Positions 17,523-20,559 of a stretch of 40,666 nt of DNA are shown here, piece by piece. The notes beneath the pieces are model-generated. The model saw nothing but the letters and a program-made list of their open reading frames with translations, had not been told where the DNA came from and did no database searches. This stretch comes from Pseudohongiella sp. (GTDB lineage: Bacteria; Pseudomonadota; Gammaproteobacteria; Pseudomonadales; Pseudohongiellaceae). The DNA is taken from NCBI GenBank assembly GCA_013204155.1, contig JABMOK010000176.1, forward strand, positions 1 to 40,666, read 5' to 3'. A program made the translations under genes and the position numbers. The first letter of the stretch is position 1; every line of letters starts with the position of its first letter.

Positions 17523-18479
17523 TCAGGCAGCACTCGCCCATTGAGGACTAAGCACCATTCGAAGCCGACAGAATACCTCGTCCATATTTTGCAGAAAGAA
17601 GAAATGTCCGCTGTTAGGAACCCGGTAAAAATTAGCCCTTGGGAGTCTGGAAACCAGATATTCACAATCCGAGCGTTGCGAGAGTCTGTCTGCACCACCC
17701 TGCCATATCAACGCGGGCACCTCGACTTCCTGCAAGCCAAAATCTAACTTGCGAAAGCAGAGCGCGGTGTCCTGAGCAATGCCTCGGCTACCTTGTCGAA
17801 CGGCCTCATTTTGATCCAGAGTCAATATTTTTATCAGACGCGGATTAGCCAGCACTTTTCGATCGGTATAGCTTAAGTATTCCCGCAAGCGTCGCAAACT
17901 TAGTTCCGCACCGACTGGGAAAAAAGTCTGTTTCAAATTAACCAGTAATTTCACCATGGCTGGTGTTGCGCTATTAATAAAATTTGTCAGATAGGAAGAC
18001 TTGCTCCTTTGTTTAAACACATTGCCTGGTATCCCGCCTAGAAAAAGCTGAATCTCGACTCTCTCAGGAGCCATGTGAGCAAGGCTTAGTCCGTATACCC
18101 CACCTGCCCCCAGCGACATGACTCCGAATTGCTTGAAACCGAGCGCATTGGCCAGCAGAAGAATATCCTCACAAAACTGCGCACAAGACCGAAGCGGATA
18201 AAAAGTTGAGCCACCTATTCCAGGACGATCGACCGCGATTAGACGATATCCCTGTTGGCGCGCACTGCGATGATAGAAGGAACTCTCAAGCCGGGAACTG
18301 CCGTTATCGTGAAAATAGAATAGCGGGTATCCGGATCGACTGCCGTATTCGTCATAAGCCAGTTCATGGCCTGTTGGCAGCTTAAAAAATCTTGATGGTG
18401 TTGGGGACTGAGGTTTACTGTGTTCGCCCAGCTTGTCCGAGATCGAATCGGCTGTCTTATTCAGTGGTGCGACATGCAT
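17523..18479 (-). CDS. Degenerate alpha/beta hydrolase
   Basis: An alpha/beta-hydrolase-fold protein of 318 residues with a 30-residue polar N-terminal extension. The oxyanion region reads YFHDNGSSRLES, where relatives have FHGxPGSR. DRPGIGGS, the acid D264 (GGADRL) and the base H292 (NSGHFF) are present. The nucleophile elbow reads VMSLGAGGVYG; aligned with the usual VLGxSGGGPY, Gly124 takes the place of the nucleophile Ser and Ser122 that of the first Gly. The enzyme may be inactive, may use a shifted Ser, or may act as a ligand receptor. A GGAG ribosome site lies 10 nt before the ATG. It is divergent from a DUF6502 gene and shares paired operators with it; its 3' end nearly meets the HD-GYP gene. 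Confidence 0.85.
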   Translation of the reverse strand: MHVAPLNKTADSISDKLGEHSKPQSPTPSRFFKLPTGHELAYDEYGSRSGYPLFYFHDNGSSRLESSFYHRSARQQGYRLIAVDRPGIGGSTFYPLRSCAQFCEDILLLANALGFKQFGVMSLGAGGVYGLSLAHMAPERVEIQLFLGGIPGNVFKQRSKSSYLTNFINSATPAMVKLLVNLKQTFFPVGAELSLRRLREYLSYTDRKVLANPRLIKILTLDQNEAVRQGSRGIAQDTALCFRKLDFGLQEVEVPALIWQGGADRLSQRSDCEYLVSRLPRANFYRVPNSGHFFFLQNMDEVFCRLRMVLSPQWASAA

Positions 18480-18527
18480 TTCGGCCGATCTCCAGAGTTT
18501 TGTCCCGATGGCGCAAGAGCTGTTCTT

Positions 18528-18556
18528 ATACTAAGTGGGAAATATTCCCACGTCAA
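18528..18556 (-). promoter_or_regulatory. Sigma70 promoter of the hydrolase gene
   Basis: Minus strand: -35 TTGACG (plus 18551-18556), a 17-bp spacer and -10 TAGTAT (plus 18528-18533). The start would be near 18521, about 42 nt before the ATG. The 17-bp palindrome at 18535-18551 fills the spacer, a classic repressor position. Confidence 0.65.
18535..18551. promoter_or_regulatory. 17-bp palindromic operator, copy 1
   Basis: GTGGGAAATATTCCCAC: perfect 7-bp arms around 3 bp. It sits between the -35 and -10 boxes of the hydrolase promoter. A second copy lies 63 bp away, centre to centre, which is six DNA turns. Confidence 0.8.
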
Positions 18557-18597
18557 TCCTTATTGGGCGCACAGGTAAACCTTGCCGATCATCAAAT

Positions 18598-18614
18598 GTG
18601 GGATTTATTCCCAC
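18598..18614. promoter_or_regulatory. 17-bp palindromic operator, copy 2
   Basis: GTGGGATTTATTCCCAC: 6-bp arms around 5 bp, 15 of 17 positions identical to copy 1. It covers the -35 position and most of the spacer of the DUF6502 promoter. Confidence 0.8.
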
Positions 18615-18628
18615 CTAATGAGTATACT
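18600..18628 (+). promoter_or_regulatory. Promoter of the DUF6502 gene
   Basis: A good -10 box, TATACT (18623-18628), lies just before the gene, with a poor -35 (GGGATT at 18600-18605, 17-bp spacer) embedded in operator copy 2. The start falls at about 18634-18637, so the mRNA would have almost no leader. Confidence 0.55.
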
Positions 18629-18636
18629 GTCGGCCT

Positions 18637-19500
18637 ATGCCTGTAAATCCTCAATCAAATACCGGTGCACCCCCCCCGCTGTTGGTCTCGGCAATAAAGA
18701 AGATATTGCGGCCTTTAGTGAAATTAATGCTGTCCTACCAGATCACCTACCCCTATTTAATCGGAATACTAAAATCCATCTATGTAGATGTCGCCGAAAA
18801 CGAATTCCAGGTTGATGACAAGCGCCCCTCAGACAGTCGTATCAACTTACTCACCGGCGTTCACCGAAAAGATGTTAAAAGATTAAGAGCCGAAGGCAGT
18901 CAAAAATTCGAAATTCCAGAAAATATATCTATCGGTGCCCAGTTGGTAGGAGAATGGTTAGGGTCAAAGGAATTCATAGATTCCAAGGGCAAGCCCAAGA
19001 CTCTGCCGCTGAAACCTGGCGCGGGCAAAGACATTAGCTTCGACACTCTTGTCAGGAAAGTCTGCAAACAGGATATACGTCCCAGAGTAATCCTGGATGA
19101 ATGGTTACGATTAGGTATTGCCCACATTGAGAATGATGAGGTGGTATTGAATACCGGTGCATTTACCCCGGATAAAGGCTTTGATGAGAAAGCCTTCTTT
19201 TTCGGAAAAAACCTGCAAGATCATATTTCAGCAGGTAGCGAAAACTTAAGCGGAAGCCGGGCCCCCTATTTCGATAGAAGCGTCTATTATGACAATTTGT
19301 CCGAAACTTCAGTGCAAGAGCTCGAGGAATTGGCCAATTATTTGAGCATGCAGGCTCTAACTGAAATGAACAAAGAAGCACTTAGCAGGCAACGTGGGGA
19401 TAAAGGCCAGTCACAATCGAAATTCAGAATCAATTTTGGGGTGTTTAATTACAGCACTGAAGCAGTGAATGAGAATCCTGAAGACGAGGGAAGCAATTGA
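18637..19500 (+). CDS. DUF6502-family protein, possible DNA-binding regulator
   Basis: A 287-residue soluble protein. The N-terminal pattern (ILRPLVKLMLSYQITYPYLIGILKSIYVDVAENEF) is what I remember of DUF6502, a family of unknown function. Residues 66-83 (DSRINLLTGVHRKDVKRL) look like a helix-turn-helix with a recognition helix. Together with the operators over its own promoter, this suggests an autoregulated transcription factor, which is inference. A variable middle part and a C-terminal region with ELEELANYLSMQALTEMNKEAL follow. No Shine-Dalgarno sequence precedes the ATG, and the predicted transcript starts within a few bases of it, so it may be leaderless. The next plus-strand gene is 126 bp downstream. 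Confidence 0.8.
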   Translation: MPVNPQSNTGAPPPLLVSAIKKILRPLVKLMLSYQITYPYLIGILKSIYVDVAENEFQVDDKRPSDSRINLLTGVHRKDVKRLRAEGSQKFEIPENISIGAQLVGEWLGSKEFIDSKGKPKTLPLKPGAGKDISFDTLVRKVCKQDIRPRVILDEWLRLGIAHIENDEVVLNTGAFTPDKGFDEKAFFFGKNLQDHISAGSENLSGSRAPYFDRSVYYDNLSETSVQELEELANYLSMQALTEMNKEALSRQRGDKGQSQSKFRINFGVFNYSTEAVNENPEDEGSN

Positions 19501-19626: not shown

Positions 19627-20559
19627 ATGCAGATAGCCAGCGCCAAAGCCACCTTGAACATCAGTGCGCAGAAACACACTGAAGCCCTGAGCGTTATCGC
19701 CGGCATTTTGCTGCTGGTCCTGCTGCTGGTGAACTACCCGAGCGCAGGTGTTGTTCGAGAGGGTGATGAAGGCAGCGGCATTGGCGGCACTGGACGAATG
19801 GCGGCCCCTGGAAGCGGCTTTGGGGGAACGGGTCTTAAACCATTTTTAGGCCTGAACGCGCAAAATGAAATTGAAATACTGCAATCATTAGATCGACGCG
19901 GTGCCGCCATTACCGCATCTATCGAACCTGTCTTCGAACCGGAGAACGCCGCTGAACTCGCCGTGGTAGATCCGCAATTTAAGTTGCTAGCAGAGACGGC
20001 CATTACACGCGACTCTTCTGCCATCACTATCGCCGAGTCTATGCAACTTGCCGCTAATAACAACGCACTTTACTTTCAGCAGGTTCTGCAACTACAAGTT
20101 CTGCAACTACAAGTTCTGCAACTCCAACTTCCACAACCACCCAGTGATCAGTGGGGCATTCCAGCTGTCGATTCCTCGACCCAGCGTAGCGTCGATCTGC
20201 GGCAGAGTATGTCCGAGCAGAAGCTCGAACTGGCGGGGGGTTTTTCAATAACGCCGGAGCTTGAACTCAGCCTCGACGAGGCTACACGGCCTGCCATGAC
20301 TGACAGTGGCCAAGCAGACTCCGACAATAACGCTATTAGCTGGGATTCAATCGCGCGGCTTCTGACAAAAAATGCGCAGACACAGACGGCCCAAAGCAGC
20401 CCGGCTGATGCGCAGGAAATCAGCGTAACTGCCGACTACACCGGCAGCTTATCACGACCGATGAAGATTCAAAGGCCTGAGCTTCCCCCAGTACAGCGCC
20501 TCCGGCCCATCCAGAGAGCTTCCATTTTGCCCCCAAGAGTACAGCCTATGCGGCTTTAG
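19627..20559 (+). CDS. Membrane-anchored GIGGTG-motif protein of unknown function
   Basis: I do not recognise a named domain. The 310 residues start with a polar stretch, a hydrophobic segment at about 21-38 that could be a signal sequence or anchor, and then two Gly-rich motifs, SGIGGTGR and SGFGGTGL. Similar GIGGTG motifs occur near the N-terminus of exported DUF5666-type proteins, but the rest of that domain is not evident here. The remainder is low-complexity, rich in Gln, Ala, Ser and Asp, and probably disordered. It contains three VLQLQ repeats encoded by a 15-bp tandem repeat, and a Pro/Arg-rich C-terminus. It follows the DUF6502 gene and is probably co-transcribed with it. The ribosome site is weak. 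Confidence 0.65.
   Translation: MQIASAKATLNISAQKHTEALSVIAGILLLVLLLVNYPSAGVVREGDEGSGIGGTGRMAAPGSGFGGTGLKPFLGLNAQNEIEILQSLDRRGAAITASIEPVFEPENAAELAVVDPQFKLLAETAITRDSSAITIAESMQLAANNNALYFQQVLQLQVLQLQVLQLQLPQPPSDQWGIPAVDSSTQRSVDLRQSMSEQKLELAGGFSITPELELSLDEATRPAMTDSGQADSDNNAISWDSIARLLTKNAQTQTAQSSPADAQEISVTADYTGSLSRPMKIQRPELPPVQRLRPIQRASILPPRVQPMRL
20083..20127 (+). repeat. 15-bp tandem repeat encoding VLQLQ three times
   Basis: GTTCTGCAACTACAA is present three times in tandem (20083-20097, 20098-20112 and 20113-20127, the last with one change). Because 15 is a multiple of three, copy number changes would lengthen or shorten the protein without shifting the frame. Confidence 0.9.

Follow-up and report, generated by a model that had tools for sequence, protein, structure and literature searches.

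Paired palindromes at a divergent DUF6502 locus of Pseudohongiella and the probable autorepressor that binds them

The intergenic region between the divergent genes of an alpha/beta hydrolase (minus strand) and a DUF6502 protein (plus strand) in Pseudohongiella sp. raises the question of which protein acts on the two matching 17-bp palindromes that it contains, and to what effect. The locus was analysed in a stretch of 40,666 nucleotides (contig JABMOK010000176.1 of assembly GCA_013204155.1), here called the window. An earlier note on this DNA had assigned both promoters to a single repressor, possibly the DUF6502 protein, and this proposal agrees with the conserved positions of the sites, a predicted helix-turn-helix (HTH) in the protein, and a spacing of the operator half-sites that follows the DUF6502 clades. 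It is likely that DUF6502 is an HTH repressor of its own gene and of the hydrolase gene, acting via GTGGGA-N5-TCCCAC.

Two palindromes, two promoters and their conservation

Both palindromes lie where the earlier note had placed them, one on each of the divergent promoters (Table 1). The sigma70 promoter that it had described for the hydrolase gene, with a palindrome in the spacer, was also found; it matches 9 of 12 consensus letters, one such promoter being present where 0.8 are expected in shuffled sequences. MerR-type regulators have their operator within an over-long spacer of 19–20 bp, whereas the spacer of the hydrolase promoter measures 17 bp. The position given for the second palindrome, over the -35 region and spacer of the DUF6502 promoter, was likewise correct, but there is no -35 consensus at this place, which is taken by GGGATT at 17-bp spacing. 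The distance between the -10 element and the start codon (ATG, 18637) predicts a leaderless DUF6502 mRNA. Lambda cI and some tetR genes are examples of repressor genes with leaderless transcripts.

The motif is rare in the source genome (3.48 Mb, 94.65% complete). GTGGGAN5TCCCAC occurs there in three exact copies, two of them at this locus, which are the only ones with an A/T-rich centre; the third has a G/C-rich centre (CCAGC) and apparently lies inside a coding sequence. A position weight matrix derived from 44 exact sites yielded 62 sites of at least 12 bits (the threshold) in 298,667 bp of DNA from 32 sequences, a count that includes the 44 used for training, where Markov shuffles lead one to expect 0.8.

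Table 1. Features of the hydrolase–DUF6502 locus (positions in the window)
Feature	Position	Strand	Remarks
Alpha/beta hydrolase, divergent target gene (candidate)	17523..18479	minus	PF00561, E 2e-12
Hydrolase promoter TTGACG-17-TAGTAT	18528..18556	minus	TTGACG 18556-18551, spacer 17 bp, TAGTAT 18533-18528
Operator 1 (putative), GTGGGAAATATTCCCAC	18535..18551		fills the 17-bp spacer on the hydrolase side
Operator 2 (putative), GTGGGATTTATTCCCAC	18598..18614		covers -35 position and spacer on the DUF6502 side
DUF6502 -10 element TATACT	18623..18628	plus	8 nt before ATG
DUF6502 protein, 287 aa, proposed autorepressor	18637..19500	plus	PF20112, E 6e-29
Predicted HTH, residues 66-85 (DSRINLLTGVHRKDVKRLRA)	18832..18891	plus	helices 66-73 and 77-85 in models
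Second unit, winged-helix-like (predicted), residues 97-173	18925..19155	plus	models and weak structural matches
GGxGGTG protein, secreted or membrane-anchored (predicted)	19627..20559	plus	after DUF6502; SGIGGTG at 19774-19794

The exact pattern and DUF6502 (PF20112) were compared across the same 146 genomes, 91 of which, many of them incomplete, belong to the GTDB family of the window; the 17 named relatives are all metagenome bins, three of them labelled Pseudohongiella. In the family, DUF6502 is present in 34 genomes, the pattern in 33, and both in 32 (Fisher 5e-21). The absence of the palindromes from orthologous loci would, according to the earlier note, have spoken against its proposal; the exact 17-mer is found in 32 of the 34 DUF6502-bearing genomes and in 1 of the 57 others. 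The two DUF6502-bearing genomes without an exact copy have close variants with 11 of 12 letters (two sites in G027, one in G105), and the only genome with the pattern alone (G074) carries it on the hydrolase side, 41 bp short of the end of a contig. Among the other 55 genomes of the order, eight have DUF6502, six the pattern, and three both. By itself, this co-occurrence is a sign of conservation rather than of cause, because the sites sit at the DUF6502 gene itself.

The positions of the sites are conserved as well. On the hydrolase side, 21 of the 34 family loci show a TTGAC element followed by the site and a -10 element, and in 10 more the -10 element abuts the site, so that in 31 loci an operator falls within the hydrolase promoter or next to it. 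On the DUF6502 side, TATACT or TATAAT precedes the start codon by 6–8 nt in 28 of the 34. Of these, 27 have an operator immediately ahead of the -10 element, in some cases one that matches at 10 or 11 of 12 letters; the arrangement is absent from five related loci and from L116. In G059, the hydrolase with its site and the DUF6502 gene are on separate contigs, possibly an effect of the assembly. In divergent autorepressors such as TetR with tetA, the regulator gene lies beside and divergent from its target, and palindromic operators cover both promoters. The operators on the own promoter (27/34) and on that of the divergent gene (31/34) correspond to this layout.

The hydrolase has a homologue in 33 of the 34 DUF6502-bearing family genomes (in G105 an MMPL protein takes its place), and its close homologues occur only alongside DUF6502 or at a contig end (G074). 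The earlier note had regarded it as a degenerate enzyme and as a ligand-sensing partner of DUF6502. The first is doubtful for the window copy, in which Ser122, Asp264, and His292 are present, but the nucleophile or the His is replaced in part of 29 homologues: 21 of them have Ser as the nucleophile, 28 have Asp or Glu at the acid position, and 17 retain the His. A role as obligatory partner was rejected and one as co-sensor is not supported, since 11 DUF6502 loci of the order that lie outside the window's family (L111, L114, L119–L124, L132, L134, and L138) contain no labelled homologue; the enzyme is more readily seen as a target particular to this family.

DUF6502 as the probable DNA-binding protein

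The DUF6502 protein matches PF20112 over residues 16-275 with 101.2 bits (curated cut-off 27). At E 0.001, this is its only match in Pfam, and there is none in NCBIfam; named regulator families (TetR, MarR, GntR, IclR, and others) are thus without a match in either database. Structure models predict an HTH-like unit at residues 66-85, in line with the segment that the earlier note had placed at 66-83, and residues 66-84 include 12 positions that are invariant among 18 DUF6502 sequences. A sequence search of solved structures gave matches only at E >0.6, and Foldseek gave none at E <=0.001, HetR rows (rmsd at least 10) being disregarded; Fis-type and other HTH proteins of known structure are candidates for comparison. 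The Pfam text for PF20112 describes no function, and nothing was found on DUF6502 or the operator motif in the literature covered, which excludes most subscription journals; a role as a DNA-binding repressor would be new. An origin in defence systems or phages was rejected: PADLOC gave no hit, and those in PHROGs were limited to a family of esterases, matched by the hydrolase, and a weak match of unknown kind.

Sampling of the class beyond the family showed DUF6502 in 99 of 369 genomes, with 136 listed matches. Of these, 110 were used; the other 26 were the match in the window itself, fragments, and matches of low score. In an unbiased count of all palindromic dyads upstream of these genes, a form with a longer gap, GGGA-N6-TCCC, ranks first, with 44/110 loci compared with 0/110 coding controls; in ten Markov shuffles no dyad rose above 7. 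Sites with 9 or 10 of the 10 half-site letters are present at 59 of the 110 loci. Some DUF6502 paralogues (L270, L272, and L119) have other palindromes near their start (GTGTTATAATATCACAC; TGGAA/TTCCA repeats), which suggests diverged operator specificities. Outside the class, six alphaproteobacterial loci were taken from 71 matched plasmid records (10 listed). All six proteins belong to the HRK type, and four are preceded by the exact N5 17-mer, which is absent upstream of the two Rhizobium loci. The palindrome is therewith linked to DUF6502 in two proteobacterial classes.

The two spacings separate cleanly on a FastTree tree of 142 DUF6502 proteins from which the HTH columns had been excluded. 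Spacing was labelled N5 for 32 rows and N6 for 55, ten of these labels being assigned by eye, and 55 rows have none. A single change, located at the deepest split (support 98), accounts for the labels; when shuffled, they require 26.1 changes on average, and none of 500 shuffles was as low as one. Because one change is one event, the match between spacing and clade is by itself a correlation. Residue 76, within the predicted HTH, is His in all 32 N5 rows (TG[IV]HRK type), whereas N6 rows have Thr (27), Ser (15), Asn (10), Tyr (1), Asp (1), or His (1). His76 is also present in rows without a spacing label, and an independent-pairs comparison of His76 and spacing comprises a single pair and has no power. 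Three genomes harbour both clades, each paralogue beside its own spacing: G042 (L114 and L121), G281 (L290 and L254), and G057 (L111 and L120, the latter with 9/10 letters of its operator). Because the spacing follows the clade and paralogues within one genome keep their own, the DNA-binding protein is very probably DUF6502 itself, as an autorepressor of the HTH kind.

Downstream GGxGGTG genes and the wider regulon

A GGxGGTG-type motif is present in the open reading frame that follows DUF6502 in 33 of 34 family loci (the remaining one reads SGMGGTG) and in 22 of the 29 class loci that have a next open reading frame; the seven exceptions contain ETGTG (four), GIDGTG, DISGSG, or RGTG. The earlier note had missed this gene for a secreted protein, and had mentioned neither the leaderless start predicted for DUF6502 nor the N6 operator that occurs at further DUF6502 genes and at DUF5666 genes. 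The GGxGGTG protein of the window has no match in Pfam or NCBIfam, and a short in-frame tandem repeat in its gene (20080-20140) encodes VLQLQ units. A short GGxGGTG-like tag soon after a signal peptide or membrane anchor is common to this short protein and to DUF5666 proteins and beta-propellers encoded beside DUF6502, and looks like a recognition or processing signal. In plasmids of Methylocystis, Pseudoroseomonas, and Azospirillum, the DUF6502 and DUF5666 genes overlap by 4 nt.

The N6 operator also extends to DUF5666 genes at other sites. TTGGGAN6TCCCAA is present in 36 of the 99 class genomes with DUF6502 and in 25 of the 270 without (p 5e-9); its reversed control is found in 10 of 99 and 26 of 270. 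Thirty site loci were examined, 18 from genomes with DUF6502 and 12 from genomes without. Six of the 18 lie at a DUF6502 start (five assigned by the HTH motif, L317 by position), nine precede DUF5666, with its core 199–263 nt downstream of the site, and three do neither (L315, L320, and L321). Sites not at a DUF6502 gene thus precede DUF5666 lipoprotein genes in 9 of 12 cases in genomes with DUF6502 and in 1 of 12 in genomes without; the single case (L304) comes from a family in which a relative has DUF6502. Pfam confirms DUF5666 in the nine of these ten loci that were submitted (all but L308). N5 sites stand ahead of beta-propeller lipoprotein genes in two other families (G057 and G128). The one DUF5666 gene of the source genome (C64) has no such site in the upstream DNA examined, and six distal N5 sites (L099, L101, L102, L103, L106, and L108) have no clear target. 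An N6-form palindrome is kept in three related genomes (G165 C49:71488, G312 C11:6311, and G419 C1:39021); at L315, in the last of these and the one locus read, it lies upstream of a gene for a glycine-zipper protein.

The neighbourhood of the window between 15508 and 22988 is kept in related loci (L109, L125, L127, L128, and L150) and comprises a GAF-HD gene and the genes for the hydrolase, DUF6502, the GGxGGTG protein, an outer-membrane protein, and a TPR/beta-barrel protein. A further palindrome is found at the divergent promoter of the outer-membrane and TPR genes in G025, G064, and G105; no such palindrome is present at this promoter in the window.

Proposed mechanism and its alternatives

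The DUF6502 protein, probably as a dimer, would bind GTGGGA-N5-TCCCAC. At operator 2 it would block RNA polymerase at its own leaderless transcript, and this autorepression would also limit the GGxGGTG gene that follows. Binding at operator 1 would occlude the promoter of the divergent hydrolase gene at its -35/-10 region. A signal, presumably sensed by the C-terminal half of the protein, would lift the repression. The arrangement resembles that of TetR and tetA in the divergence of regulator and target, the operators over both promoters, and a predicted HTH; it differs in that DUF6502 has two HTH-like units in the N-terminal half of its models and its own operator, GGGA-N5/6-TCCC, and in that its usual partner is a downstream GGxGGTG or DUF5666 gene, not a transporter.

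The computation establishes the sites, their conserved places at the promoters, their association with DUF6502 genes, the clade-linked spacing, and HTH-like units in models, whereas direct binding, dimerisation, repression rather than activation, and the signal are steps that we infer. The operator in the place of a -35 consensus at the DUF6502 promoter would suit a protein that activates, or that represses one promoter and activates the other. Activation is nevertheless rather unlikely, because the hydrolase-side site lies inside a spacer of normal length or abuts the -10 element from downstream (10 loci), and the sites of L197, L202, and L203 extend over the -10 element of a TTGAC-type promoter and end near the ATG; these positions suit occlusion.

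A transcription factor encoded elsewhere might also bind the palindromes, with DUF6502 merely one of its targets. Such a factor would account for the 51 of 110 class loci without a clear site, some of which, by eye, have variants such as CGGGA-N6-TCCCG (L237 and L239) or other palindromes (L270 and L272), and for the 18-mer in genomes without detected DUF6502, although its reversed control is about as frequent there. We consider this quite improbable, since an outside factor would explain neither the clade-linked spacing nor the differing paralogues of G042, G281, and G057, the pattern is nearly absent from family genomes without DUF6502, and DUF6502 itself carries the predicted HTH.

Cooperation of the two operators through DNA looping, which the earlier note had considered, is very unlikely and was rejected. 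The note's figure of 63 bp, or six helical turns, is correct for the window, and family loci often have two or more sites, but pair spacing ranges from 30 to 242 bp across loci and shows no significant phase (Rayleigh p ~0.09 for 22 pairs that include near-relatives, with four further pairs of 30, 168, 169, and 206 bp omitted), and several loci carry only one site. Chance is excluded by the enrichment and conservation of the palindromes, and RNA hairpins, although inverted repeats could pair in RNA, have a negligible probability, given that there is no terminator-like site in 18300-18900 and that operator 2 lies upstream of the predicted DUF6502 transcript start.

With DUF6502 as the probable repressor, a broader interpretation has, in our estimate, an even chance of being correct: DUF6502 proteins may form an undescribed, proteobacteria-wide group of autorepressors devoted to secreted proteins with a short GGxGGTG-like tag, namely DUF5666 lipoproteins, beta-propellers, and a family-specific membrane-anchored protein. 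Their operator code would have two forms, an HRK-type helix pairing with GTGGGA-N5-TCCCAC and a TRK-, SRK-, or NRK-type helix with TTGGGA-N6-TCCCAA, and the tag could be the mark of a step in processing or sensing with feedback to the repressor. A widespread family without an assigned function would thereby gain a testable role in repression, for which an operator and targets are predicted and a protein feature that tracks operator spacing is available. The condition that relieves repression should in turn reveal when cells need the secreted DUF5666 and GGxGGTG proteins.
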